IMG/VR virus record: IMGVR_UViG_3300036978_000053
Location: 1 to 25,604 of that record
Direction: 5' to 3' (one strand)
DNA from: a virus
DNA: 25,604 nucleotides
Position numbers and translations under genes: made by a program. Under the pieces are notes generated by a model. That model was given only the letters and a program-made list of their open reading frames with translations, did no database searches and had not been told where the DNA came from. Below are positions 1,792-19,374 of this stretch, in pieces; the first letter of the stretch is position 1, and every line of letters starts with the position of its first letter.

Positions 1792-4209
1792 ATGGCAGAT
1801 GTCCTTAAACCACTTCCCGCTATCGTAACGGATACATATGCGACAAAATCACCTCGCATTACCAACTCTTACGACAAGCCTCGCATTCTTGATCTGGATG
1901 TTGTTGATCCCACTACTGGCAATAACGATGTTGTCAATAAAGATACTTTGCAGGTTAAGCGGACATTCAAAGATGCCGCACAAGCGCACTCTGCTTATCG
2001 CAGGCTTAAACAGCAGAATGTCGAGAGGAACAAGAAGAATCAACTGATTCAGAAAAAACTCAACAATGAGCCTCCATATGCTGCAAAAAAACTGGAAAGC
2101 ATGGGCCAGAATTGGAGGTCTAATCGTCCTACTGGTTTTCTTTCCACGATGGTTAGCCGAATTCAACCTCCTTTTAGGCAGGTCATCGAGCAGGCTACAA
2201 CTCTCACCTTCTCAAAGTATCCAGTTGAAGGAGTAGATGCCGAAAACAAAACAAAAGTTTTCCGCGAAGAGGTAACGAAGTGCATCCGTGGATGGAGTGG
2301 TCACGATGACATCGTGGCACAAGTTGTCCATGAAAATACCACATTTGGATTTTGTGGTCTATGTTGGGACGATTTGCGCGATTGGAAACCAGAATTCCTG
2401 CGCCAAGATTATACTTTCTTTTCGATTGAAACACCGCAAGAGGTGGATTCAACTCCGATTTGGGCAAGGAAACGCAGATACCAGATTGCCGAGTTGATGC
2501 CAGTGCTTGAAGACCCTGTTACTGCTGCGATGGCAGGATGGCATATCAAGAATCTTGTCAAGGCAATTAACAACGCAATTCCTGCTGGACGCACGCTTGA
2601 TGCTGATGATGACGCACGCCGATATGAGGACTGGATTCGTGAAGGATCGTATGGCGCAAGCTACGAGAATGACGCAAAGTATGTCGAGCTTGGCGAGTTG
2701 TTGGTGAAAGAACCGCACGGCAAGATTAGCCGATTCTTGTTTGACGATAAGAGCGGAGACGAGATTTGCACACAGATTGATCGTTACAACAAGATGAGCG
2801 AGTGCCTTGCGTTGTTCGCTATCGAGATCGGAAATGGAAACCTGATGGGTTCCCGTGGTGCGGGACGTGATCTTTACAACACGCATATTGCAGTTGACAA
2901 AGCCCGAAACCTTGTTGTGGACAATGTGTATCTGAAAGGAATGTTGTTGCTCAAGAAGGGGCCAAATGCGAAGGCAGGAGCAGCACCACTGACTGTCCAT
3001 CACCCTGTTTGCTATATCGCGGAAGGATATGAAGTGATTCCGCAAAACTTGCCAGCGGACGTTGATGACTTCCTTCGTTTGGATCAGTTTATTAGTGGTC
3101 TTGCTGAAATCCAAGTTGGAACATTCCTGCCGGGAATGCCAATGGAAGCGCAGGGCGGGAAGCGCACGGCATCTGAAGTAAATCGCGTTGCCGCTATTGA
3201 AAACCAACTCCGCGAAGGCATCCTAATGCGCTGGACGAAGCAATACAGCAAGGCAGTTGAGCGTATGCAACGAGGCATCTGTCATCCAGAACACGTTAAA
3301 GCTGCTGCTGAGTTGAAAACTCGTCTTGACATCGCTCGCCAAATGGTTCCATCAGCAACATGGGCAAGGCGTGAAGTTGTTGATGCCTTTGATCGTTCCG
3401 TGATGGACTTGCCATCGTTCCTTGTTCCTTTCGAGGTTCCAGAACACTTGGATGAAGACGCTATTGCCTGCTGCTTAAATATGCTTGAACGCAATCTTCC
3501 TCCAGCGGACATTTTGCTCATGGCATATAGTCCAGCGGAAGAATTGTTGCCTGACACGCAAGCCCAAGACAACGCGATGCTTGATCTTATGATCCAGCGT
3601 TACATGGGCAATCCGCAAGTCAACCAAGACGAGTTGCTAAAACTTGATTGGTCACGCAAGATGGGTGAAAGCATTGCCAACCAAGTCATCCTTCCGAAAG
3701 ATCAGGTTGAGGCGTTGGCAATTGAAGCGACCCGTCAACAGATTATCGAGTTGCAGTCTATCATCGCGGGACAAGAAGTTCCAGTTTCTCCGCGAGACAA
3801 TGACATTGTTCATCTTGATACGATGGCGCAAAAACTCATGCCGCTTATTGAGCAAGCTCCAGCAGGCACATTGCCTCCAGAAATGGTTGCGCCATTCATG
3901 AAGGCGTTGCAACATTTCATGATGCACATTGGACAAGCGGAAGCGAAAGGTGCAAACTCGCAGCAAGTGACGCAATACAAGCAAGCCGCAAAACAAGCAT
4001 TCGATCATCTCACAGCGGGTCACGGAACTCCACCACCTCCAGAGTTGCAACCAGCGGCAGGCGCAGGATTGCCATCAGGTGGAGGTGGACGCAGGCCAGT
4101 TGTTGCACAAGCAAAGGCTGTTGGCGAAATGACAGAGCAAGCAGCACCAACTCAACTTGGAACGATTAACGAAATCGCTAATCCTCCTAAACCAGTTACA
4201 GCAGGATAA
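1792..4209 (+). CDS. Portal protein (large, head-to-tail connector)
   Basis: At 805 residues this is larger than typical portals of about 400-550 residues and nearer the size seen in some podoviruses. The portal forms the dodecameric ring at the capsid vertex through which DNA is packaged and ejected. The call rests on position immediately after the terminase module and before a scaffold-like gene and the capsid gene. It also fits the long helical central and C-terminal regions and the Pro/Gly/Ala/Gln-rich tail (about residues 700-805). The segment around residues 100-140 (RPTGFLSTMVSRIQPPFRQ) resembles the N-terminal wing of large portals, from memory only. No Shine-Dalgarno is visible before the ATG. 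Its identity as a structural protein is fairly secure; portal is the best specific call. Confidence 0.75.
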   Translation: MADVLKPLPAIVTDTYATKSPRITNSYDKPRILDLDVVDPTTGNNDVVNKDTLQVKRTFKDAAQAHSAYRRLKQQNVERNKKNQLIQKKLNNEPPYAAKKLESMGQNWRSNRPTGFLSTMVSRIQPPFRQVIEQATTLTFSKYPVEGVDAENKTKVFREEVTKCIRGWSGHDDIVAQVVHENTTFGFCGLCWDDLRDWKPEFLRQDYTFFSIETPQEVDSTPIWARKRRYQIAELMPVLEDPVTAAMAGWHIKNLVKAINNAIPAGRTLDADDDARRYEDWIREGSYGASYENDAKYVELGELLVKEPHGKISRFLFDDKSGDEICTQIDRYNKMSECLALFAIEIGNGNLMGSRGAGRDLYNTHIAVDKARNLVVDNVYLKGMLLLKKGPNAKAGAAPLTVHHPVCYIAEGYEVIPQNLPADVDDFLRLDQFISGLAEIQVGTFLPGMPMEAQGGKRTASEVNRVAAIENQLREGILMRWTKQYSKAVERMQRGICHPEHVKAAAELKTRLDIARQMVPSATWARREVVDAFDRSVMDLPSFLVPFEVPEHLDEDAIACCLNMLERNLPPADILLMAYSPAEELLPDTQAQDNAMLDLMIQRYMGNPQVNQDELLKLDWSRKMGESIANQVILPKDQVEALAIEATRQQIIELQSIIAGQEVPVSPRDNDIVHLDTMAQKLMPLIEQAPAGTLPPEMVAPFMKALQHFMMHIGQAEAKGANSQQVTQYKQAAKQAFDHLTAGHGTPPPPELQPAAGAGLPSGGGGRRPVVAQAKAVGEMTEQAAPTQLGTINEIANPPKPVTAG

Positions 4210-4231
4210 ACAACAAAAACAAAATAACATT

Positions 4232-4489
4232 ATGGGCGGCGCAAATTCACAAGCACTTAAAAATTACAAGAAATACGCGATGCAGGAAGCACAACCTGAT
4301 CGTGGAGAAGGTATGTCACAACAAACGGCAGACGCATACGCTAAATTTGACAACAAAGCGTCTACTCCAAACGCATTTGGACGCGATGCAAAAAAAGTTG
4401 ATCCAGCATCTGTTATTAAAAAAGAAGACGTTAATTTGATTAAAAAACCAATGTCGTCGTATGATGCCATTGACGCAGGGTTGCGATAA
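4232..4489 (+). CDS. Small hypothetical phage protein (85 aa)
   Basis: This is a small polar protein of unknown function, rich in Lys, Ala, Asp and Gln. The frame is open further upstream, to an ATG at 4157 inside the portal gene. I prefer the ATG at 4232 because it lies just after the portal stop. It also follows an A-rich leader (CAACAAAAACAAAATAACATT) like those before neighbouring genes. The text PNAFGRDAKKVDP and the ending SYDAIDAGLR are noteworthy: the scaffold-like protein downstream ends with a similar phrase (DAIDLGLDEAGL). That may reflect a short capsid- or portal-interacting tail shared by the two. No domain is recognised. Confidence 0.7.
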   Translation: MGGANSQALKNYKKYAMQEAQPDRGEGMSQQTADAYAKFDNKASTPNAFGRDAKKVDPASVIKKEDVNLIKKPMSSYDAIDAGLR

Positions 4490-5206: not shown

Positions 5207-6490
5207 ATGGAAAACGACACAGAAAACACAGTAGAACCAGACGTGACAGGATTTGGCAACCCAAGTCTTGACTCAGACCCAATCGATGACACAACAAGCG
5301 CAACAATTGATAGCTTGCTTGACGAAGCACTTGGAGAAACAACAGAAAACAATGAACAACCTAATACTTCTGATACTGGAGAAAATACAGACAATTCACT
5401 TGAAGATTCAGTTGCACCTACGGAAACGCAGGCTGAAAAAACAACTGGCGAGAGTCAGGGCAATGTTCAACCAGAACCTCAACAACCAGTCGAGCCAAAA
5501 ATCGACATCGATCCAGAAATCGCAGCCATTGAGCAACCTCGCAATCTCAGCGAAAAAAACCAAAGCAACTGGCGTAAACTTCAAGAAACTGCAAGTCAAT
5601 ACAAGCAGCAAGCCGCCGAAGCAGAAGTTCTGCGTCAACGACTCTCCGAAGCAGAGCAAAGAAAAGAAATCCCGCAAGACTACGAAGAACTCAAAAAGTT
5701 CCGCGCAATCTTCGACATCAAAAACGATCCAGAGTTCAAAAGCAAATACGAAGCACCGATCCAAAGTGCCAAGGAAAGTATATATGGAATTCTAAGGAAG
5801 CATGGCGCGGGAGATGAGGTAATCAACTCTATTGAGGAGGCTGGAGGGCCAGATAAGGTTGCCGACTCATTCTGGAAACAAGCTGCATTTCAAAAACTGC
5901 CATTGACTGATGCTGAAAGGTTGAAACGTGGTCTTGTTGATGTTTCTGAGCTTAAGGAAAAGCAAGATGCCGAAATTTCTCATGCCGCTGAACACGCTGA
6001 AGAAATTCTTGCTCAACGTGAGACTCAAAATAAAGAGTGGTATGGCAAGGAAGTTGAGCAAATTGACAATTACATGGAGGAGATTACTAAAGACCTTCCG
6101 TGGGCAAGGTTTGTTGAACCTCTTCCGAATGCAACTCCAGAGCAACTTAAACAAGTTGAAGATCACAATAAACGAGTTGGAGACTTGGCAACAAAGTTCA
6201 ATTCTGCGCTTTGGCCTACAACGGCACAGGAACGCGCCAATGTTGCTGCATCTGCCGTGTTTAGTCATGTTCTCACAGAACAACTACGCACAGAGCAGGC
6301 TCAAAAGAATGCGCTCATGGATCAAGTCAAGCAACTTACTTCAGAAAATAACAAGCTCAAAGGAAGTTCCAAACTTCCAAAGCAAACTGTTACAACTCAA
6401 GTATCCAATAAACCATCCAATTTGTCTGATCGGATTAAAATGAATGCCTCAGACGCAATTGACCTTGGTTTGGATGAGGCTGGATTGTAA
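5207..6490 (+). CDS. Scaffold-like acidic coiled-coil protein
   Basis: This 427-residue protein is a probable capsid scaffold, which guides procapsid assembly and is then removed. Residues 1-100 are acidic and low in complexity (Asp, Glu, Thr, Asn). Residues 110-170 and 260-385 are rich in Glu, Lys, Gln and Ala with heptad-like spacing, consistent with coiled coils. The last 40 residues (DRIKMNASDAIDLGLDEAGL) may be the capsid-binding tail. Length, charge and position between portal and capsid genes fit scaffolds, which are rarely recognisable by sequence. A minor virion protein is the alternative. The leader AATAAACAAATAT has no Shine-Dalgarno. Confidence 0.65.
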   Translation: MENDTENTVEPDVTGFGNPSLDSDPIDDTTSATIDSLLDEALGETTENNEQPNTSDTGENTDNSLEDSVAPTETQAEKTTGESQGNVQPEPQQPVEPKIDIDPEIAAIEQPRNLSEKNQSNWRKLQETASQYKQQAAEAEVLRQRLSEAEQRKEIPQDYEELKKFRAIFDIKNDPEFKSKYEAPIQSAKESIYGILRKHGAGDEVINSIEEAGGPDKVADSFWKQAAFQKLPLTDAERLKRGLVDVSELKEKQDAEISHAAEHAEEILAQRETQNKEWYGKEVEQIDNYMEEITKDLPWARFVEPLPNATPEQLKQVEDHNKRVGDLATKFNSALWPTTAQERANVAASAVFSHVLTEQLRTEQAQKNALMDQVKQLTSENNKLKGSSKLPKQTVTTQVSNKPSNLSDRIKMNASDAIDLGLDEAGL

Positions 6491-6563: not shown

Positions 6564-7520
6564 ATGGAAGTAAAAGTATCGCCAGATGAACGCATTACAA
6601 TGAACGCATTGGACAATTTTGATCCATTTGCGCGTAATGGCGTTCCTACGCAACCTCTAAATCAACCCAAAGTTGCAAAAAAGCCCGGACGCAAGCCAAA
6701 AGAGGAGGTAACTACCGAAAAAGAGCATCGTAATGTTGATATTGGCACACAGAACGAGACAAAACCTCTGGAAACCATCGAAAATGCAGTTCCAGAACCT
6801 AAAATTGAGGAGGAACTACACAAATCATTGCCACTACAGCAACCAATTGTAGAGTCCAGAACTTCTGAAGGGTTGCCAAGCTACAGAACAGAGTTTTCTG
6901 GTCGAGATATTTTTGTTGGATTCTCCGCTGGATCACCGACGAATGCAATTTCGGCATTTTCGCTTGTAAATATGGCACTTGATTTTGGTCGAGACAAAAT
7001 CCGCTTTGATTTTTCTATCAGCGATGGAAATTTCTACCATTCCCGCAACGAGCTTGCTAAAAAGTTCCTTGAGACGGACGCTAAATGGCTTTTGCTGCTC
7101 GCAAATGACATTATCCCTTCAGTTGGTCGTCCAGCATGGGCAAAAGCTACTGTAGGGGCAGCGAGAGGCTTGCAAGACCTGCCTCTGCAACGTCATGTCA
7201 TCCATCGTTTGATTGGAAGCGGGAAAACACTTGTTGGAGGCGCGTATTTTGAAAATGCTGATGCCTCTTCAATTGCTTGTTCAGACAAAAACCTTGGAAC
7301 TAAGGCAAAATCATATCCCGATGAAATCGTCCCTGTAGATTGGGTTGGTTCTGGATGTATGCTGATCCATCGTCGCGTATTTACTGACATTGGCGAGCGT
7401 CAAGGAGGATTTTTCTATCCAGATGACATTTCGTTCTGCAAACGCGCAAAAGATGCAGGTCATCAACCGCACATTGACCTTGGAATTCCAGTATTCCATG
7501 TCGGGTATAAATCTTACTGA
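6564..7520 (+). CDS. GT-A-type (family 2-like) glycosyltransferase with disordered N-terminus
   Basis: This 318-residue protein has two parts. Residues 1-105 are low-complexity and rich in Pro, Lys and Glu, and include KPGRKPKEE. Residues 112-318 look like a GT-A fold sugar transferase: FVGFSAGSPTNAISAFSLVN, then WLLLLANDIIP (174-184), then VDWVGSGCMLIHRRVF (258-273), then DISFCKRAKDAGH (288-300) and a terminal FHVGY. Acid-x-D sugar-nucleotide sites normally follow the hydrophobic strand. Here the triplet is Ala-Asn-Asp (180-182), so only one canonical Asp remains. Phage enzymes of this kind modify DNA bases, virion proteins or host surface sugars; the substrate cannot be read from sequence. 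It lies next to a second transferase-like gene. Confidence 0.7.
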   Translation: MEVKVSPDERITMNALDNFDPFARNGVPTQPLNQPKVAKKPGRKPKEEVTTEKEHRNVDIGTQNETKPLETIENAVPEPKIEEELHKSLPLQQPIVESRTSEGLPSYRTEFSGRDIFVGFSAGSPTNAISAFSLVNMALDFGRDKIRFDFSISDGNFYHSRNELAKKFLETDAKWLLLLANDIIPSVGRPAWAKATVGAARGLQDLPLQRHVIHRLIGSGKTLVGGAYFENADASSIACSDKNLGTKAKSYPDEIVPVDWVGSGCMLIHRRVFTDIGERQGGFFYPDDISFCKRAKDAGHQPHIDLGIPVFHVGYKSY

Positions 7521-7550
7521 TAAAACCAAAATTTACCATTTCGGGTATAA
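7501..7550 (+). repeat. Short direct repeat TCGGGTATAA around the gene junction
   Basis: TCGGGTATAA occurs at 7501-7510, inside the end of the upstream gene, and at 7541-7550, directly in front of the next start codon. Both are preceded by CCATG or CCATT. The second copy creates TATAAT overlapping the ATG. It may be a small duplication that created the junction. No regulatory role is demonstrated. Confidence 0.5.
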
Positions 7551-8125
7551 TGAAACCTAAAATCTACTCATATTACGAAAGCATCCAGACGTTACCACAA
7601 GAGGAGCAATTTGCTCGCGCCAACTGGTGGAAGACATCGTGGGAGAAAAATGGATGGGAATGCGTGATGCTTAATCGCTCGCACGCTACAGCAAGTCACA
7701 TGAATCAAAAATTCATGGCGAAGCTGATGAAGATGACATTTGATTTGCCAATGGACTATCAGCATATCTTCCCAAATATTACCGCTCGCTATTCTCGTTG
7801 GTCTGCCTTGCACGCAGCGGGAGGTGGGTGGATGAGCGATTACGATGTCTTCAACATTGACTTCACTCCACGCGATGCGGTCAAATTTGAATCTACTCTC
7901 AACATCGTTTCTGGGAAACCATGTTACTTGTTTTTTGCAACACGGGAACATTGCGCTGCTGTCATCAACAAATTTATTCAAGAGGATTTTTTTGTTGACA
8001 ACAAGCTCCGCTTTGAATCCGAAATCCTCGGAGTCGAAAGCAAATTGTCGGATATGTTGAATCAAGTTCGACACATTGAAAAAAGTGATAAGCCAAAGTC
8101 TGAAGTGATGGCATCACTCATGTAA
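7550..8125 (+). CDS. DXD-motif glycosyltransferase-like protein (GT32/sugar-binding type)
   Basis: This 191-residue protein has an N-terminal strand-like opening (KPKIYSYYES) and a clear DXD region. It reads ARYSRWSALHAAGGGWMSDY followed by Asp-Val-Phe, so the motif is Asp97-Tyr98-Asp99 behind the Arg80...Gly91-Gly92-Gly93 context. That arrangement (R-x-x-x-L-x-x-x-G-G-x-Y/W-x-D-x-D) is characteristic of small sugar transferases that use nucleotide sugars with a metal ion. The catalytic sequence looks intact here, unlike the neighbour upstream. The length is short for a full enzyme but matches the core domain. The gene ends just before a hairpin (8161-8197) and may be the last gene of its transcript. 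The acceptor is unknown; virion proteins are one possibility. Confidence 0.7.
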   Translation: MKPKIYSYYESIQTLPQEEQFARANWWKTSWEKNGWECVMLNRSHATASHMNQKFMAKLMKMTFDLPMDYQHIFPNITARYSRWSALHAAGGGWMSDYDVFNIDFTPRDAVKFESTLNIVSGKPCYLFFATREHCAAVINKFIQEDFFVDNKLRFESEILGVESKLSDMLNQVRHIEKSDKPKSEVMASLM

Positions 8126-8160
8126 CCATACTCATTCTGGAAGGCTTGAGGTTGGCGGCA

Positions 8161-8197
8161 AGAGACACTTCGCCTGTTATGGAGATGAAGTGTCTTT
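8161..8197 (+). terminator. Hairpin downstream of the glycosyltransferase genes
   Basis: AGACACTTC (8163-8171) pairs perfectly with GAAGTGTCT (8187-8195), and A-G/T-T extend it to 11 pairs including one G-T. The loop is 15 bases and the following T run is very short. It lies 35 bases after the transferase stop, so a weak terminator or an mRNA-stabilising hairpin is plausible. Confidence 0.5.
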
Positions 8198-8229
8198 AAC
8201 AATACTCATTCCGTATAGGAATCGGCAGT

Positions 8230-8496
8230 ATGGCATTTCGACATTTACGCTGCTATCTTTATCGGGCTGCGCCAACACTCAACAAACACCCATTAGCAGC
8301 GCCTTCGCCTATTCCGTGCAAGCATTGCAATTTTAATCGCAATATTTACCGAACTCGGAATAGCGTGTTTACCCGAAAAAAATCGAGCGGGAAGATTGGC
8401 ATGGTTACAGCATATGTTCCTCCCTGCGCATTTCCAGCAAGTGATCCCAAAGGATTTGTTGCTGCTGTCTCTGTCATATTTCGCTCACAGATATAG
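8230..8496 (+). CDS. Doubtful small open frame (88 aa)
   Basis: This frame has an ATG with AGGA nine bases upstream. The product (opening MAFRHLRCYLYRAAP, with PCKHCNF inside and VAAVSVIF near the end) has no domain I recognise. Its codon and residue composition differ from those of the neighbouring proteins: high in Arg, Cys and Pro, low in Asp and Glu. It sits between two terminator-like hairpins in an otherwise non-coding stretch. I list it so it is not lost, but it may be chance or a gene remnant. Confidence 0.2.
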   Translation: MAFRHLRCYLYRAAPTLNKHPLAAPSPIPCKHCNFNRNIYRTRNSVFTRKKSSGKIGMVTAYVPPCAFPASDPKGFVAAVSVIFRSQI

Positions 8497-8542
8497 CATC
8501 ATTTGCGAGCTACTTTGGGGAACTGCGTGAGCTTCATGCCAA

Positions 8543-8589
8543 GTAAAAACCCGCCTTGATGGAGCAGCACCAAGACGGGTTTGTTTTAC
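8543..8589 (+). terminator. Strong hairpin, probable terminator
   Basis: AAACCCG (8547-8553) and CTTG (8555-8558) pair with CAAG (8571-8574) and CGGGTTT (8576-8582), with one C/A mismatch. Outer bases GTAAAA (8543-8548) and TTTTAC (8584-8589) can extend the stem with a bulge. The A-rich left flank and T-rich right flank would let it work in both directions. It would insulate the capsid transcript from the genes upstream. Confidence 0.65.
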
Positions 8590-8671
8590 CAGAAGGAAAA
8601 TGTTTTTCGTCTTGAACCCTGCTCGATTCAAGTAAGATGAAAGCAAGCTACGAGACGATTGGAATCATGTC

Positions 8672-8692
8672 AAATATTTTTTGAAAATATTT
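8672..8692. repeat. AT-rich perfect inverted repeat
   Basis: AAATATTTT (8672-8680) and AAAATATTT (8684-8692) form a perfect 9-base inverted repeat with a 3-base loop. More AT-rich sequence and a TTGACA (8706-8711) follow. It may be a binding site for a bending or regulatory protein near the capsid promoter; the pairing is too weak for a terminator. Confidence 0.5.
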
Positions 8693-8860
8693 TATAAAAT
8701 TATTGTTGACAACTTTTGAAAAATATTGCAGTCCGTAAATATCTCGGCGAACCATTCCGAATATGGCGACTCCGTGGAAGTCAAAGAATCCACACTACAG
8801 GCCGCACAACAAGCCCAGCGTGCCGGGGCGAACAAACAAGAAACAAAGCAGAATGACCAA

Positions 8861-8878
8861 TTTCCTGACATCAGGAAA
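8861..8878. promoter_or_regulatory. 18-base palindrome, operator-like
   Basis: TTTCCTGA and TCAGGAAA are exact reverse complements separated only by CA. A perfect 8+2+8 palindrome looks like a dimeric protein-binding site. It lies 112 bases before the capsid start codon, in the leader of that gene. No other copy was noticed in the window. Confidence 0.5.
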
Positions 8879-8989
8879 ATGGTATTTCAGCAACTTGAAT
8901 GTCGTTCCCGAAGTTTTCTAAACAACGGGTCGGTTCAAGCAGAACAAAAACCCAAAACACAAACAAAACTAAATTAGAAAACAAATATT

Positions 8990-10183
8990 ATGCCTAACGA
9001 TTGTATTCCATTGGCGACAGTTCAAAACTTCGCCTCTAAAGACGTAAACCGCATCATCGGCCAGATTGCCCGTGTGCTTGCTCGTAAATCCCCTTACATT
9101 AACTCCATTGATGGTGGCACTCTGCCTTCCGTTTCGGATGTTGTTCGTAGCGTGGTTGAGGAAATGGCAGTTCCTGCCGCTTCGCTTGCCGCTCCTACCT
9201 TCGTGAATGACCTTACGCTTTGCGGCGTTGGTGCTACTCCCGATCAGGTTGGCTCGACTGAATATCAGTTCCAGCTTCAGACCCTTCGCGGTGCAGGCCC
9301 ACGTGTTTGCGTTAAGCAAGCTCGCACTGCTTTCAAAGGTTCTTACCTCCAAGCTCAAGTTTCGCTTGAGAAAACGATCCTTCAGATCATCAACGCCGAT
9401 ATTCGTTATCAATACCTGATCCAGTCTGGTATCAAGTATGTTGTTGATTCTACCGATTCGTTTGGCAACAACCTCACTGGCGATATGCAGCAGATCAACA
9501 CCTTGTTTGCCGCAAAAGACCCTGATGCTCAGATGAACTTCAAGACCCTCTATCGCATTGGAACTTTCCTCCGCGAAGAGATGCTTGCCGAACCTTTCGC
9601 AACGAAAGATGGCGAGTTCTTCCAAGTTCTGGCTTCTGCCGATCAAATCGAAGTGTTCCGCAATGATCAAGATGTCAAAGAAGACCTCCTGTATCTCTCC
9701 GCTGGTAGCTTCAAGCTCGGTGAAGAGTCCATCAGCGGCTATCAGTTCATGGGTTATCGTGGTTTTGCTTTCGGTATCGACCAACAGCCTCTCCGCGCTA
9801 CCGCAAACGTTGCTGGTGTCCTGACACTGGTCAATCCTATCGTCAGCACTGCCGTTACCAATGGCTTCGCTCAACGCCGTAACCCTGCTTGGGTTAATGC
9901 TCCTTACGAAGTCATGTTTGTCATCGCAGGCGAAGCCTTCAAACGCCTCGTTCCTGAGAACTATGTTGGCGAAGGCACATTTAAGTTCGCTCCTCAACTC
10001 GCTATGGGTGAGCTTGAGTGGACTTACTTCCGCGATAACGATTGTAACCTGTATGGTGACTATGGTCAGCATATCTATCAAATCCAACGCGCCATTCAGC
10101 CGATTCGCCCACAGAACGTGTGCGCTATCGTCTACAAGCGTTGCCCATTTGATGGCAATCCGACACCTTGCGTGATTCCTTAA
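8990..10183 (+). CDS. Major capsid protein
   Basis: This 397-residue protein is the probable shell-forming protein of the head. It fits by size, position after portal and scaffold, a mixed alpha/beta composition without low-complexity tails, and isolated transcription signals on both sides. Base use differs visibly from the neighbours: many GCC, CTC, CGC and ACC codons, as often seen in the most highly expressed phage gene. The N-terminus (PLATVQNFASKDVNRIIGQI) reads as a helical arm. GYQFMGYRGFAFGIDQQPLR lies at about residues 250-269, and the C-terminus has three Cys residues (GNPTPCVIP at the end). I cannot assign a specific HK97-type subfamily by eye. The leader AAAACAAATATT lacks a Shine-Dalgarno despite the presumed high expression. 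Confidence 0.8.
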   Translation: MPNDCIPLATVQNFASKDVNRIIGQIARVLARKSPYINSIDGGTLPSVSDVVRSVVEEMAVPAASLAAPTFVNDLTLCGVGATPDQVGSTEYQFQLQTLRGAGPRVCVKQARTAFKGSYLQAQVSLEKTILQIINADIRYQYLIQSGIKYVVDSTDSFGNNLTGDMQQINTLFAAKDPDAQMNFKTLYRIGTFLREEMLAEPFATKDGEFFQVLASADQIEVFRNDQDVKEDLLYLSAGSFKLGEESISGYQFMGYRGFAFGIDQQPLRATANVAGVLTLVNPIVSTAVTNGFAQRRNPAWVNAPYEVMFVIAGEAFKRLVPENYVGEGTFKFAPQLAMGELEWTYFRDNDCNLYGDYGQHIYQIQRAIQPIRPQNVCAIVYKRCPFDGNPTPCVIP

Positions 10184-10250: not shown

Positions 10251-13184
10251 ATGCCACAAAAAGTAATTTGGACATCTGCGCCTCAATCGTGCGCTCCTAA
10301 TCCTTGTCTGTTGCCGGGGCAACAATACGACTGCAATTATCCTAACATTGGAGCTACTGGCGCAAGTGGCCCAACAGGTGCTACAGGCGCAACTGGTGTA
10401 GTTGGCTCACAGGGTTCTACGGGAGCAACAGGATTCGGTGCAACAGGAGCAACTGGAACACAGGGCGCAACTGGAAATCGTGGAGCCACAGGAAGCACGG
10501 GAGCAACTGGATTTGGAGCAACTGGAGCAACGGGAAGTCAAGGCGCAACTGGAAGTCTTGGAGCAACGGGATCAACTGGTGCAACTGGCTTGCAAGGGGC
10601 AAGCGGCATAACTCCAGTAATTACACGGCAAAGCCTTACATCGTTTCCAATTTCACTTGGAACTAAAACATTTTTTTATGCGCCTGCAACAGTAGGTTGG
10701 ACATACGGATCAAGGGTTCGTGCGGTTGCTAATTCTGCATATCCTTTTGATTGGATGGAAGGAAATGTTATTGCCGTTGCAAGCAATTTTGTAACAATTT
10801 ACATTGATAAAACTCAAGGTGCAGGAACATATTCTGATTGGCAAATTGCATTGTCTGGAGATGGTGGCATTGGTGCTACAGGTCTAACTGGAAGCACAGG
10901 CGCAACTGGTATTGGCGCAACTGGATTGACAGGAACTACTGGAGCTACAGGTGCTACTGGCCCCCAAGGCGCAAGTGGCATCAATACAATTTACGACGAG
11001 AACAATCCTATTCCACCACTTGTTCCAGTTGAAGGACAACGATGGGTTGATACTGATACTCTGATTGAATACCAATGGTATGACAATACATGGGTTGAGG
11101 TTAATGCTCCAAGAGAAGGGGCGACAGGAGCAACTGGCGCACCCGGATATGTTGGTAGCGATGGCGCGACAGGTGCAACTGGATTAACAGGAGCGACTGG
11201 GCCGAGTGGTGGGCCAACGGGTGCTACTGGAGCAACTGGAAGTGGAGCCACTGGCGCAACTGGAGTTGAAGGTTCTACAGGAGCAACGGGTGTAGCTGGT
11301 AACGATGGAGCCACTGGAGCAACTGGTATTGCTGGTGTTGATGGAGCGACAGGGGCAACAGGCATTCAAGGTGATGCTGGTGCTACTGGAGCTACGGGTG
11401 CTACTGGAATATCTGGTTCAGATGGGGCTACAGGAAGCACAGGTGCAACAGGATTGAATGGAAATGATGGAGCGACTGGAGCCACAGGTCTTACTGGCTC
11501 ACAAGGTAGCACAGGGGCTACAGGTATAGCAGGAATTGATGGTTCTACTGGCGCAACTGGTGTTGCTGGTGGACAAGGTTCTACAGGAGCTACTGGTGCA
11601 ACTGGTGTAAGCGGAACTGATGGTGCAACAGGCGCGACTGGATTGAGCGGAACTGATGGTGCAACTGGAAGCACTGGAGCTACTGGAGTTGCTGGCACTG
11701 ACGGAGCGACTGGTGCTACAGGCCCGCAAGGCGCAACTGGTTTGACTGGTGCTGGTGGAGCTTCTGGATATTGGGGTTCATTCTGGTCAACTCAACAACA
11801 GAATGCTATTGCACCTAATACAGAATACGCAATCACATACAATAACACTGATCCAGATAGTGTTGGCGTTTCAATTTCAAATAGTAGCCGAGTCAACTTT
11901 GCATTCACAGGAGTTTATTCCGTTACATTTAGCGTTCAATGGTCGAATGCTGCCGTCCAAATACATGATGCAAATATTTGGCTCAAGAAAAACGGAGTAA
12001 ATGTTGCTGATACGGATTCTCGTTGGTCAGTTGTTGAAAAACATGGCGGCACAAATGGTCGATCTGTCGGAACAGTAAACTATGTTCTGAAGGTTCTTGC
12101 TGGAGAATATTTAGAATTGTTCTGGCAAACTACTGATATTAACATTTCATTGGAATATCTCGGCGCAATTCCTCCTGCTCCTGCAATCCCATCTATCATC
12201 TTGACTGCAACTCAAGTCATGTATGGTCAACTTGGCGCGACTGGTGCTACAGGAGTTACAGGATCGACGGGAGCCACAGGAATTCAAGGAAGCACAGGTG
12301 CGACGGGTATTGGGGCTACAGGTGCTACAGGAATTACATTATCTCCGCAAATTGATATTTATACTCTTTCTGATGTTTGGACAAAACCAGCAGGAGCAAA
12401 GCAAGTTGTAGTCGAATGCGTTGCTGGTGGTGGAGGTGGCGGATATGGCGGCAAAGGCGCGGCAGGAACTGCTTTGTATGGTGGTGCTGGTGGAGGCGCA
12501 GGAGGATATAGTCGAGTTTCTATTGACGCATCTCAACTTACTGAAGCAAGTTATACTGTAACTGTTGGAATCGGTGGGACTGGTGGAATTGGAGCAACTT
12601 TGACTAATGCTACGCTCGGAACATTTACTCGTTTTATAGGGGCAGTTCAAGGGCAATTAGCAGGAGCAAATGCTGGAGGAATTTTAGCAGGAAATGGCGG
12701 GACTAACGCACCAACAGCAGGAAGTGGTGGTGCGCCTACACCAAACTCTGGAGGCATACCGAACATAACAGGAACTGGTGGAACAGGAACGGGTTCTGGA
12801 TTTGCACCCACATCTGGCGGTGCTGGAGGCGGACTATCAGCAGCAGCAACTGTTGGATCAGCAACTGGTTTGTTTAGCGGAGGTTCTGGAGGGAATAATG
12901 CTCTTGTTCAGCTTTCAAGCGGTGGTGGCGCAGCGCGAACAAATGCTGATGGAAATTCTGCAACATCAACTGCTGCCAGAACATTATCATCGCTCGTAAT
13001 CAATGGCTGCGGTGGTGGAGGTGGAGGAGCTTGCTCGTTCGCAACGGGTTCTGGAGGCAATGGAGCAAATGGAACTGGCTATGGTTCTGGTGGTGGTGGA
13101 GGAGGTTCAACTATTGGTTCTGGTGAAAGAAGCAATGGCGGCAATGGTGCGCCCGGAGTCTGCGTGATAACAACTTATTTTTAA
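10251..13184 (+). CDS. Collagen-like fibre protein with Gly-rich C-terminal domain
   Basis: This 977-residue modular fibre protein starts with a short Cys-containing segment (Cys14, 19, 28). Collagen-like Gly-x-y repeats, mostly Gly-Ala-Thr, occupy about 33-119, 205-243, 289-503 and 661-695. Between them lie globular inserts at 120-204, 244-288 ([20 protein letters not shown]) and 504-660. The 504-660 insert has a jelly-roll, C1q/TNF-head-like pattern. The final part (696-977) opens with [20 protein letters not shown] followed by long Gly runs, as in Gly-rich domains of phage tail fibres. Such proteins form trimeric fibres that bind the host. The Thr in the y position could carry sugars. The gene lies between the capsid hairpin and the lysis genes, with no Shine-Dalgarno. 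Confidence 0.85.
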
Positions 13185-13186
13185 TT

Positions 13187-13354
13187 ATGGAAATTGACGA
13201 CTGGCTTATTGTTAATTCAGAAACAAACGAGATCGAAATGGGCATCCGTTGGGATGGTAAAACTAAATGGCCTTTGCCAGAAGGAACATATGCCGTAAAA
13301 CGAAACGAAGCAGACTTTTCAAAGATTAAATACAAAGAACAAGAAGAAGAATAA
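13187..13354 (+). CDS. Small acidic protein (55 aa)
   Basis: This 55-residue protein fills the space between the fibre gene and the holin-like gene. It starts MEIDDWLIVNSETNEIEMG and continues with RWDGKTKWPLPEGTYAVKR, ending in an acidic EQEEE tail. The stop overlaps the next start (TAATG at 13352-13356), a sign of coupling with the lysis genes. No membrane segment or motif is visible. The Trp/Pro-rich middle looks like a small beta domain. It may be a lysis regulator or a short tail-associated protein. Confidence 0.7.
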   Translation: MEIDDWLIVNSETNEIEMGIRWDGKTKWPLPEGTYAVKRNEADFSKIKYKEQEEE

Positions 13355-13536
13355 TGGACACACACTCACTTAACGCAGGAATGGCAGGAGTATTGGCTAC
13401 AGCAACATCAGTTGGTATTTCGCTACTGCCAGAAATTGAAGCATGGTTGCGAATCGCCTCGCTTCTTGTTGGTATCGCAGTAGGTATCGGATCACTTATC
13501 GTTCTTGCTAAAAATTGGAGCAAAAATAAGTCTTGA
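13354..13536 (+). CDS. Holin-like small membrane protein (60 aa)
   Basis: This 60-residue protein has two hydrophobic stretches, about residues 9-27 and 33-53 (ASLLVGIAVGIGSLIVLAKN), and a basic end (NWSKNKS). Size, two membrane helices, a short charged C-terminus and position just before a lipoprotein and an endolysin fit a class II-type holin. Holins form lesions in the inner membrane and time lysis. Its start overlaps the previous stop, and its stop overlaps the next start (TGATG at 13534-13538). A second holin-like gene follows, so one of the two could be an antiholin. The family assignment is by features only. Confidence 0.65.
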   Translation: MDTHSLNAGMAGVLATATSVGISLLPEIEAWLRIASLLVGIAVGIGSLIVLAKNWSKNKS

Positions 13537-13914: not shown

Positions 13915-15474
13915 ATGCTTCACAAACTTATCGCCATCGCTTCAGCAGAAGTTGGCGTGAGGGAAGAAGGCGGGAATAATCGTGGAGAACGAATCCGCGA
14001 GTATCAATCCGCGACAGATTTAAACCCCGGAGCTTGGCCTTGGTGTGCCGCTTATGTGGATTGGTGTATTCGTGAATGGCTATCAATCCCACAAGTTGTA
14101 ATTTGGCTTAATCTTCAACGCAGGACTCCAGAAGAATGGCGACCCAAGACGGCACTTGCGTATGGACTAAAATCTTGGGCATTACAGCGTCCAAGCACCA
14201 CTAAAGTATATAATGATACCAATAAAGCTCAACTTGGTGACATCGTAACATTTGACTTCTCTCATGTTGGATTTGTCATTGAAGATACAGGCAAGGAAAT
14301 TGTGACTTTGGAAGGAAACGCGCTTCCATTGACATCAAAAGTTTTGACTCCACATGGATTCAAATTGATGAAAGACATTAAAGTTGGAGACAATGTGATT
14401 GATCCAGATGGAGAAGAATCATTTGTAACTGGGGTTTTCCCACAAGGATCAAGAGATTTGTATAAAATAAAACTTCAAGATAAATCAGAAGCAATTTCAT
14501 GCGATCAACATTTATGGAAAATACAAATTGATGGAAGAAAAGATAAAGTATTAAACACTATTGATCTTAAAAAAAGAGTTAATTCAAAAGCACTACGATC
14601 AAGAATACCTCAAATACAACCAGTAAATTTTTCATTCAATGATAATCTTCCAATCGAGCCATATTTGATGGGGTTACTTATTGGTAAGGGTGGAATGTCA
14701 TCGGATTATCTTGGATTCACAAATATAGATGATGAAATAATTGATCATGTAAAAAACAATCTTGTATCTGGTCATATTTTAAAACCTCATATTGAAAACA
14801 AAAATACAGTTAGAGGTAATTACAGGATTATTTCTGAATCAAAATGCAAAAATGAAATGATTCGTATTTTGAAAGAATTAAACCTCCAAGGTAAAAAATC
14901 TTTTGAAAAGTTTATACCGGAAATATACAAAAATTCATCAATCGAAAACAGGTTGAGCTTGCTTCAGGGATTAATGGATTCAGATGGTAGTGTTGATAAA
15001 ATTGGGAGATGTGATTTCTCATCTTCATCAAAACAATTGAGCGAAGATGTTATGGATTTAATTCGATCTCTCGGCGGTAGGTGCGCGTTGAATGTAAAAA
15101 CAAATATATTTTACACATCACCAAATCAAAAAACACCAAAACAAGCCAGAGATTGTTATAGGCTTCAAAACATAAATATGCCATTCTTCAATCCATTTAG
15201 ACTGAAAAGGAAGAAAGAGAGATTTAAGTTTAGAAACGCAGCTTGGGCAAGAAGGATTGTTTCTGTTGAGCCATGTGGAACTGGAGAAGTTCAGTGTATT
15301 TCTGTATCCGCAAAATCGAATCTTTTTATTACTGACAACTACATTCCAACGCACAATACCAATGGTAAGGGCGAAAGAGACTCAACAAGCGGAGATGGAG
15401 TCTGGAAAAAAATTAGAAAGAAATCTCTTGTAAAAGATTTGATTCGCATTCATCCAAGTATCGCATCGATATAA
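13915..15474 (+). CDS. Endolysin (CHAP/NlpC-like peptidase) interrupted by an intein
   Basis: The 519-residue precursor consists of an N-extein (1-135), an intein (136-481) and a C-extein (482-519), which would splice to 173 residues. The exteins form a Cys/His peptidase of the kind used as phage lysins: Cys44 in WPWCAAYVDWC, His117 in SHVGFV, and the EGN motif at 133-135. Spliced, the junction reads EGN-TNGKGERDSTSGDGVW, the normal continuation in this family. It presumably cleaves peptidoglycan peptides during lysis. It directly follows two holin-like genes and a lipoprotein. The precursor should be inactive until spliced, because the break falls at a conserved active-site motif. The start is ATG 13915; no Shine-Dalgarno is visible. 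Confidence 0.85.
   Translation: MLHKLIAIASAEVGVREEGGNNRGERIREYQSATDLNPGAWPWCAAYVDWCIREWLSIPQVVIWLNLQRRTPEEWRPKTALAYGLKSWALQRPSTTKVYNDTNKAQLGDIVTFDFSHVGFVIEDTGKEIVTLEGNALPLTSKVLTPHGFKLMKDIKVGDNVIDPDGEESFVTGVFPQGSRDLYKIKLQDKSEAISCDQHLWKIQIDGRKDKVLNTIDLKKRVNSKALRSRIPQIQPVNFSFNDNLPIEPYLMGLLIGKGGMSSDYLGFTNIDDEIIDHVKNNLVSGHILKPHIENKNTVRGNYRIISESKCKNEMIRILKELNLQGKKSFEKFIPEIYKNSSIENRLSLLQGLMDSDGSVDKIGRCDFSSSSKQLSEDVMDLIRSLGGRCALNVKTNIFYTSPNQKTPKQARDCYRLQNINMPFFNPFRLKRKKERFKFRNAAWARRIVSVEPCGTGEVQCISVSAKSNLFITDNYIPTHNTNGKGERDSTSGDGVWKKIRKKSLVKDLIRIHPSIASI
14320..15357 (+). mobile_element. Intein with LAGLIDADG endonuclease domain (346 aa)
   Basis: Block A starts ALPLTSKVLTPHGFKLMKDI followed by KVGDNV, with Ala as residue 1. 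Block B reads SCDQHLW, with His199 and Trp201. The endonuclease part has LMGLLIGKGG (251-260) and LQGLMDSDG (350-358). Block F reads VQCISV, with Cys461, and the end is FITDNYIPTHN, closing with His480-Asn481. The first C-extein residue is Thr482. Ala1 with Trp at B:12 and Cys at F:4 resembles class 3 inteins; the usual Thr at F:5 is Ile here. In the first LAGLIDADG motif the catalytic Asp is Lys258, so the endonuclease may be inactive. The stretch is markedly more A+T-rich than its flanks, consistent with separate origin. Confidence 0.88.
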
Positions 15475-16791: not shown

Positions 16792-18669
16792 ATGCCAATC
16801 ACTTTTCCTATACCTACATTTATTGGAGAAACTTTTTTTGCTGGAGGAAAAGGTTGGCAATGGAATGGGTTTGCATGGGATTCAATTGCTAATACCGCTG
16901 CGGTTGGCGCAACAGGCCCAGTTGGAGCTACAGGCCCAACTGGAGCAACTGGAGTTCAAGGTTTGACTGGTTCCACTGGAGCAACAGGTTTGCAAGGGTC
17001 AACTGGAATAGGTTCTACAGGCGCAACAGGATTACAAGGATTAATTGGAGCTACTGGCCCACAAGGAGTCCAAGGAATTCAAGGTATCCAAGGCGATGCT
17101 GGCGCGACTGGCTCTACTGGACTTACAGGTGGACAAGGATCAACTGGTGCTACAGGACTCCAAGGCATTCAAGGCGGCACGGGAGCTACAGGAGTTGCTG
17201 GATTAGATGGTTCAACGGGCGCGACGGGCGTTACAGGTGTTCAAGGCGCAACTGGAGCTACAGGAGCGACGGGATTAACAGGCGGGCAAGGTTCTACTGG
17301 ATTACAAGGAAGCACTGGTGCTACTGGAGTTCAAGGAATTCAAGGCAATCAAGGCTCCACTGGCGCAACTGGCGTGATTGGAGGACAAGGAAGCACTGGA
17401 GCTACTGGTATTACTGGTTCTCAAGGCGCAACTGGAACTACAGGTGCAACTGGCGTTACAGGAGATGTTGGAGCAACTGGACTTACTGGAGCAACTGGAT
17501 TAGGAGCTACAGGTGCAACTGGTTTAACTGGAGCAACTGGAGCGGCTGGACAATCTTCATCTTTCTACAATTACAAAGCTGATGCAGTTACATTATCTGG
17601 AGTTCCAACAGTTCAAACATTGTATTGGAATAACGCAACGCAGACATCCTCTACGATTGTAACGCTTTCTCACATTGATGCGCTCGGAAACGACATTGAT
17701 GTTTTCTTCCCTTTATTCAAAACAAACGATACATTTATTATCCAAGATCAAGGAAACTCAAACAACTTTCAAACTTGGAGGATTACAGCTACTCCTACTG
17801 TTGTTCTTAATAGTTATATCTCAATTCCAGTAACACTTGTTACTTCTGGAGGAACATCTCAATTTGCAAACAACCAGCAACTTATTTTTGCAATTGTTAC
17901 TTCTGGTCTTACTGGAGCTACTGGAATTCAAGGCAGCACGGGGGCAACTGGTGTTGCGGGAGGACAAGGAGCGACTGGAGCAACTGGAGTAACTGGAGGA
18001 CAGGGATCAACAGGTTCTACAGGCGCAACTGGCATACAAGGTATTCAAGGTATACAAGGGTCAACTGGAGCTACAGGAGTTCAAGGAATTCAAGGAGCAA
18101 CTGGATCGACTGGCGTTCAAGGTGTTCAAGGCATACAGGGCATCCAAGGAGCTACAGGTTCTACAGGTTTGACTGGTCTTCAAGGGTCTACAGGTGCTAC
18201 AGGAACTCAAGGCATTCAAGGTATACAAGGCAGCACGGGGGCGATTGGTGTTCAAGGTGTCCAAGGTATTCAAGGATCAACTGGTTCTACGGGTGCAACA
18301 GGATTAACAGGTGGGCAAGGTTCTACTGGGGCTACTGGAATTGGGTCAACAGGTGCCACTGGAGTTCAAGGTGTGCAGGGTATTCAAGGCATACAAGGTT
18401 CTACTGGAGCCACTGGTGCAGGAACTCAAGGTTCAACAGGAGCTACTGGAGTTGGAAATCAAGGAGCGACTGGAGCGACTGGCCCTGCTGGGAGTGGTGG
18501 AGGAGCAACTGGAGCGGGAACAGATGCAATTTTCTTTTTGAATGGACAAACAGTAAATACTTCTTACACAATTCCAGTATCACGAAATGCTGGTAGTTTC
18601 GGCCCGATAACAATTGCATCTGGAGCTGCTGTTACAGTTCCAACTGGTGGAGTTTGGACAGTTGTGTAA
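16792..18669 (+). CDS. Collagen-like fibre protein 2 (625 aa)
   Basis: This 625-residue fibre protein opens with a short Trp-rich unit ([20 protein letters not shown], residues 12-31), a type seen at the start of phage fibre proteins. Collagen-like repeats run from about 39 to 252 and 372 to 575. They mix Gly-Ala-Thr with Gly-Ile-Gln and Gly-Ser-Thr triplets. A beta-rich insert occupies about 253-371 ([15 protein letters not shown] onward). The last 47 residues (579-625, from [10 protein letters not shown] to GGVWTVV) form a module shared with the next gene. The Gly-x-y register is kept except at short Gly-x-Gly breaks. It likely forms a trimeric host-binding or decorating fibre. Confidence 0.85.
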
Positions 18670-18717
18670 AAATGTTTGACTTATTTTTGAAACAATGTAA
18701 AAAGGATTGAATCTTAT

Positions 18718-19374
18718 ATGTCTTGCGGATGCTCTAACTCTACTTCAACAGCCTGCCCAGAGGTTCCATACCCAACGATTTCATCTGAATCAGTTCCAAG
18801 TTTGATTGGAAATCTTGTTTATGCTCTTTATGGAACTATTGAGAAATCGGTTTCTTCTGGACGAGTAATCTGGAATATTCCTTGCGACCCTAATAACACT
18901 ACAGAGATTTTTGATCAACCTCGTCTTACTGACGAAGGTTTGATGTGTTATTTTATTCGCCTTGCTAATGACGGCACATTCATGGGTGCAACTGGGCCTA
19001 TTGGATCAACTGGATCAACTGGCCCGCAAGGTTCTACAGGATCAACTGGGCCTATTGGAGCAACTGGTTCTGCCGGGCCTGCTGGTGGAGCAACTGGAGC
19101 AACTGGGCCTGCTGGTGCTACTGGCCCGTCTGGTGGGCCTACTGGAGCTACTGGAGCTACTGGCGCAAATGGAACAAATGGAGCAACTGGAGCCACGGGC
19201 ATTGGAGCAATAGGAGGATCGGGAACGAATGAAGTATTCTTCTTGAATGACCAAGCAGTGACTGCAAGTTATTCAATTCCATCAACTAAAAACGCAATGA
19301 CCGCAGGGCCAATCACAGTCAATGCAGGAGTCACAGTCACCATCCCAAGTGGATCAGTTTGGACAGTAGTATAA
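18718..19374 (+). CDS. Collagen-like fibre protein 3 (218 aa)
   Basis: This 218-residue protein has a non-collagen N-terminal part (1-88) starting [20 protein letters not shown], with Cys3, 5, 13, 56 and 77. That is followed by a short collagen-like stretch (about 90-168, Gly-Ala-Thr, Gly-Ser-Thr and Gly-Pro triplets). The ending module (172-218, [20 protein letters not shown] onward) aligns without gaps with the end of the preceding collagen-like protein. The N-terminal segment with [20 protein letters not shown] probably attaches it to the virion. AAAAAGGA lies about 12 bases upstream of the start, a weakly placed Shine-Dalgarno. Confidence 0.8.

Follow-up and report, generated by a model that had tools for sequence, protein, structure and literature searches.

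What do two glycosyltransferase-like genes modify when they lie inside the head-gene cluster of a virus that also encodes collagen-like proteins? The window analysed here (the whole stretch of 25,604 nucleotides) is a 25.6-kb IMG/VR virus record from an uncultivated bacterial virus, presumably of lake origin. The initial annotation proposed that the phage glycosylates its own fibres or capsid, and it favoured the threonines of Gly-Ala-Thr (GAT) collagen-like fibres as acceptors, by analogy with the sugars on BclA of Bacillus spores.

The first gene, GT1 (6564–7520, plus strand), encodes 318 amino acids (aa) and the second, GT2 (7550–8125, plus strand), 191. Both are conserved and have predicted GT-A folds, so the recognition of two transferase-like genes was correct. 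They lie, as had been noted, between a scaffold-like ORF of 427 aa (5207–6490, plus strand) upstream and a putative major capsid protein of 397 aa (8990–10183, plus strand), a candidate acceptor, downstream. The names 'scaffold' and 'capsid' are inferred from position and conservation: neither ORF had a PHROG or Pfam match naming a role, and the scaffold-like ORF showed a weak coiled-coil-type match. The putative capsid protein was 77–94% identical in the aligned diverse relatives and up to 97% identical in the nearest ones.

The lineage is large, with many relatives of the window virus in IMG/VR. There were no matches to it across 50,697 cultivated-phage records: tblastn with the window GT1, GT2, the 397-aa ORF and an 805-aa ORF at the portal position found nothing in cultivated phages, and neither transferase had a sequence match there at E 0.01. 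A host search with GT1 against 84,980 bacterial and archaeal genomes returned no true relative.

The gene order around the pair was compared in 92 distinct capsid sequences, 78 of which had upstream DNA exceeding 4 kb. Both transferase genes were present in all 78 of these contigs, always linked to structural genes, in the order scaffold-like gene, GT1, GT2, variable enzymes where present, and putative major capsid gene. The scaffold-like ORF adjoins GT1 upstream in the relatives that cover that region; GT1 often starts about 3 bp past its stop codon, and between GT1 and GT2 there is usually an overlap or next to no gap. Two records, L015 (G006) and L069 (G022), have another GT1-GT2 pair, more diverged, at a different place in the contig; these are perhaps joined or mixed assemblies.

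GT1 was characterized by AF2 modelling with VIA-align, by PHROG families and by a motif survey. In the AF2 model, built on a 43-sequence alignment, the protein is disordered up to about residue 105 and forms a mostly confident GT-A domain beyond it. Its layout is a conserved N-terminal tag (about aa 4–23), a disordered linker reaching about aa 90–105, and the GT-A domain at about aa 107–318. The best fold match in VIA-align was A197 of the archaeal virus STIV (Z 19.3 over 163 residues, 2.4 Å), tied with residues 293–521 of the collagen-modifying enzyme LH3 (Z 19.1). Mimivirus R699 (Z 16.7) and COLGALT1 (Z 16.5), likewise linked to collagen modification, were also among the neighbours, as were Mnn9 and many bacterial GT-A enzymes below A197 and LH3. 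Z-scores of 14–19 were obtained against many GT-A structures. Scores of this kind, for GT1 as for GT2, support a fold and not a substrate.

In sequence-profile searches, the window GT1 had no meaningful Pfam or NCBIfam match, and the family profile matched nothing among PDB chains. One of the 43 relatives matched Glyco_tranf_2_3, a CAZy family GT2 profile, at E 0.003; the window protein had no Pfam glycosyltransferase match. PHROG 1574, of unknown function, matched 42 of the 43 relatives (best E 9e-14), and PHROG 2456 and PHROG 34859, both named glycosyltransferase, matched 26 and 14 of them, respectively. These matches are independent sequence support for GT1, with the window protein's own match weak (E 8e-4) and limited to its C-terminal 65 residues.

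The metal-binding DXD site of the window GT1 is degraded. The residues are A180-N181-D182 (AND), with the first Asp gone, a state shared with L001 and L033; in this subgroup the loop before a conserved D-[IV]-S-F-C motif is shortened. Elsewhere in the lineage the site is DDD in most members, DHD or DND in some, and DNN in one sister group. Loss of the first Asp makes the catalytic competence of the window GT1 doubtful. Its dN/dS against relatives was nevertheless 0.05–0.17, indicating purifying selection, and the protein may be an accessory pseudo-transferase.

GT2 is a compact GT-A domain, supported by AF2, VIA-align and motif conservation. Its model had a pLDDT of 95, and VIA-align gave Z-scores of 9–11, among them 11.3 for glycogenin and 9.2 for the PBCV-1 capsid glycosyltransferase; Foldseek E-values were weak, the best being 3.7e-3. 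No Pfam match was found in 41 members of the family, the window protein had no NCBIfam match either, and the family profile matched nothing among PDB chains. Glycogenin, the nearest fold, belongs to CAZy family GT8, and the GG-W-x2-DYD motif resembles that of family GT32. GT2 retains an intact DYD motif at aa 97–99 in the usual DXD context (R-x2-R-W-x2-L-x4-GGGW-M-S-D-Y-D). D97 and Y98 were invariant in all 41 aligned sequences and D99 was kept in 40; dN/dS against relatives was 0.07–0.10, again purifying selection. With its DYD intact where GT1 has lost its DXD, GT2 is the likelier catalyst in the window and probably a working enzyme.

These motif states bear on a reading in which both proteins are non-enzymatic in the window phage and serve as GT-fold assembly or structural factors. 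The AND of the window GT1 and the DNN of the sister group, under purifying selection nonetheless, agree with it, and so does the fact that the LH3 domain matched by GT1 is itself a likely non-catalytic glycosyltransferase domain. It is hard to reconcile with the near-complete conservation of the GT2 motif, with a D-x-D kept by GT1 in most of the lineage, and with the accessory transferases and methyltransferases that cluster next to the pair in relatives (see below). We regard it as having little likelihood.

The three collagen-like ORFs downstream of the pair are as rich in Gly-Ala-Thr as had been described. They lie on the plus strand at 10251–13184 (fibre-like, with a Gly-rich C-terminus; Pfam Collagen E 2.5e-18), 16792–18669 (fibre-like; E 2.4e-48) and 18718–19374 (short; E 2.1e-6). 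In runs of at least 4 they contain 127, 134 and 24 G-x-y triplets, respectively; in all three GAT is the most frequent triplet (50, 37 and 8 copies), and Thr occupies the y position 71, 73 and 12 times. The ORFs within 16792–19374 share a C-terminal domain with FFLN-x-Q-x-V ... VWTVV, which suggests a trimerisation or tip domain.

The proximity of these ORFs, the collagen-modifying enzymes among the fold neighbours of GT1, and the precedent of mimivirus, where collagen-like proteins and a collagen glucosyltransferase occur in one virus (PMC9614988; PMC11838735), would all fit glycosylation of the fibres. The distribution of the genes does not. Among 39 long relatives (45–94 kb, metagenomic records not proven complete), Pfam Collagen was present in 19 and absent from 20, and the GAT-codon pattern split the same records identically (at least 9 hits versus at most 3). 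Both transferases were found in 20/20 collagen-free records and in 17/19 collagen records. The two records missing transferases were both collagen-positive, on contigs that end inside or beside the block. The initial annotation had named equal presence of the transferases in fibre-less relatives as the pattern that would speak against its proposal, and this is the pattern seen.

Two close relatives depend less on record completeness, because non-collagen fibre-like genes are seen after the capsid gene: L005 and L008, whose capsid proteins are 96% and 94% identical to that of the window, respectively. Both keep both transferases. On the capsid tree, scored by GAT tripeptides (L033 has GAT tracts), the GAT trait changed about 8 times while the pair stayed constant. 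In the other direction, GT2 was absent from every one of the 33 further viral records in which Gly-Ala-Thr collagen occurs, and a partial GT1-like match was found in only 1 of these 33; as a positive control, GT1 and GT2 were recovered in 38/39 and 37/39 of the long relatives. Presence of the pair is independent of fibre type, and the proposed co-occurrence with Gly-Ala-Thr fibres did not hold.

A collagen-specific role was therefore rejected, on co-occurrence in both directions. The matches to LH3, R699 and COLGALT1 were also rejected as evidence for collagen: the LH3 region that GT1 matches is the likely non-catalytic AC domain, the glycosyltransferase domain being residues 33–277 (PMC6082870), and a viral glycosyltransferase unlinked to collagen scores equally. 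The collagen-like protein of an E. coli O157 phage was unglycosylated when produced as a recombinant (PMC3368898). The fibres of the window phage are thus very unlikely acceptors.

The interval between GT2 and the putative capsid gene offers further evidence. In many relatives it holds 1 to 4 further enzymes: GT34-like proteins (Pfam E 1.5e-8), DUF5672 proteins (E 3.6e-20), class I methyltransferases and an FkbM methyltransferase. Some relatives have a 240-aa protein there whose resemblance to GT9 was sub-threshold only. These additional transferases and methyltransferases are the pattern expected of a glycan-building cassette. Four records carry, directly before the capsid gene, a gene with an FGE-sulfatase domain and an apparent signal peptide (L069:11860-12843, L010:6312-7274, L022:14691-15446 and L100:10798-11820); in L069 the Pfam E-value was 3.4e-21, and the placement beside a capsid gene is unusual.

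In the window, none of the extra enzymes is present. The interval (8126–8989, 864 bp) is conserved in close relatives, being about 91–93% identical in the closest, yet it lacks a conserved long ORF. A decayed third transferase was considered and rejected: the frames in close relatives were short, and the search for an intact homologue found none. The interval had no Rfam match. A hairpin at about 8543–8589 (MFE −16.5 kcal/mol, z −2.9) could end the GT2 transcript.

Some phage glycosyltransferases modify host surface glycans, and seroconversion genes are usually located elsewhere than in the head operon. A pair that alters host surface glycans would serve in receptor masking or superinfection exclusion, a role known for some phage glycosyltransferases (PMC12619734). 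GT1 and GT2 both look soluble, with a membrane-like segment in neither, the cassette ORFs examined included no recognisable flippase or membrane-anchored partner, and the pair is fixed within the head operon, where genes of this kind are not usually placed. We consider this role unlikely.

DNA is another potential substrate. Phage glycosyltransferases can hypermodify DNA, according to the citation of Pyle et al. 2024 in PMC12619734, and the pair might act on modified phage DNA. Weak homologues of GT1 lie in a replication-gene setting in 2 of 3 cultured phages inspected (HTVC027P and LS06-2018-MD06), so membership of the GT1 family does not by itself imply a virion role. In addition, genes for a TET/JBP-like dioxygenase (E 9e-13 to 1.1e-11) occur in three relatives, L068, L075 and L156 (G021, G024 and G033), a hint that some members of the lineage hypermodify their DNA. 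That enzyme, however, occurs in only 3 of the 39 long relatives whereas the transferase pair is in essentially all, thymidylate-synthase-like genes were found in 0/39, and the pair is grouped with head genes. Glycosylation of phage DNA by the pair is thus given only a slim chance.

The GT-A transferase-like genes are fixed inside the head operon, and modifying a virion protein is therefore the role that assumes least. The part of the initial proposal in which the phage glycosylates its own capsid or another virion protein is retained, and the part concerning the collagen fibres, which 20/20 collagen-free relatives lack while keeping the pair, is abandoned. Specifically, we infer that GT1 and GT2 form the fixed core of a module for glycan synthesis, that this module glycosylates a protein of the head or elsewhere in the virion, and that GT2 is the likely enzyme. 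We give this reading about even odds (a probability of roughly 0.5).

Under the virion-protein reading, GT2, with its intact metal-binding DYD, would transfer sugar from host nucleotide-sugars to a virion protein of the same operon during infection, the capsid protein or some other protein of the head being the likeliest acceptor. GT1, by means of its N-terminal tag and long flexible linker, would deliver this activity to the head as it assembles. In relatives that have a full GT1 DXD together with added transferases and methyltransferases, the glycan might be longer, methylated and variable among strains. In the window phage, the cassette comprises only the two genes, and GT1 may serve mainly as an accessory pseudo-transferase.

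The ends of several proteins touch on this supposed docking. The GT1 tag, SPDERITMNALDNFDPFA in the window, has the consensus KxSPxExxTxxALxSxNPFA and is followed by the variable linker; together they suggest a docking device. The tag motif did not occur beyond chance in other proteins of the lineage. The C-terminal peptide of the scaffold-like protein, DRIKMNASDAIDLGLDEAGL (6430–6487), is near-invariant across relatives. A small ORF (4157–4489) ends in a related peptide, SSYDAIDAGLR (4450–4486), and the GT1 tag bears a faint resemblance to the scaffold-like terminal peptide. The three are possibly a shared docking motif, as judged from sequence.

A broader, lineage-wide version is tentative and rather unlikely, taken as a whole. 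It would make capsid glycosylation, throughout this lineage of tailed phages, an obligate part of head assembly, in which the tethered GT1 recruits a second transferase and swappable enzymes diversify the glycan; as part of the same reading, the tethered GT-A protein would degenerate to a pseudo-transferase in some branches.

The window also holds a CHAP-type endolysin gene (13915–15474) with an in-frame intein-like insertion at about aa 136–483 that carries LAGLIDADG/Hint motifs. The L080 homologue is uninterrupted (173 aa, 12928–13449).

Virion glycosylation has precedents in a few phages as well as in algal, amoebal and archaeal viruses. In the present case a transferase pair is universal and fixed in the head operon of a diverse uncultivated lineage, with strain-variable enzymes beside it. 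The idea that capsid sugar coats may be a standard and diversifying trait thereby becomes directly testable. The GT1 subgroup that has lost its DXD and yet remains selected is a natural setting in which to study non-catalytic glycosyltransferase partners. The comparison also corrects a tempting story, because collagen-like fibres and transferases adjoin here without being linked.

Several known systems resemble parts of this module. Mycobacteriophages are tailed phages with glycosylated virions, the glycans being on capsid and tail-tube proteins according to Freeman et al. 2023 as cited in PMC12619734; neither window transferase matched these or any other cultivated phage at E 0.01. The cultured phages checked for PHROG 1574, 2456 and 34859 carry these families in genomic contexts that differ from that of the window. 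Mimivirus L230/R699 and the PLOD/COLGALT enzymes have GT-A domains that are fold neighbours of GT1, and mimivirus also has collagen-like proteins, but these enzymes act on hydroxylysine or galactosylhydroxylysine, and no lysyl hydroxylase gene turned up around the window block. Among the domains of LH3, the likely non-catalytic AC domain shows the greatest likeness to other glycosyltransferases (PMC6082870).

The closest parallels come from viruses with glycosylated coats. STIV A197 (PDB 2C0N) is, like GT1, a small viral GT-A protein; it is an essential glycosyltransferase whose presumed substrate is the STIV coat protein, which is known to carry glycans (PMC10551542). It differs in coming from an unrelated virus, in sharing 16% identity, and in having no further domain, hence no counterpart of the N-terminal tag and linker of GT1. 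For GT2, the parallel is domain 1 of PBCV-1 A064R (PDB 2P72, 2P73 and 2P6W), a viral GT-A domain of about 200 aa with a similar fold. This capsid glycosyltransferase is a rhamnosyltransferase of the capsid glycan, and A064R joins two glycosyltransferases and a methyltransferase that build the glycan of the capsid protein (PMC9614988). Identity to GT2 is about 10%, and the algal virus combines in one multidomain protein what the present lineage encodes as separate genes of a head operon.
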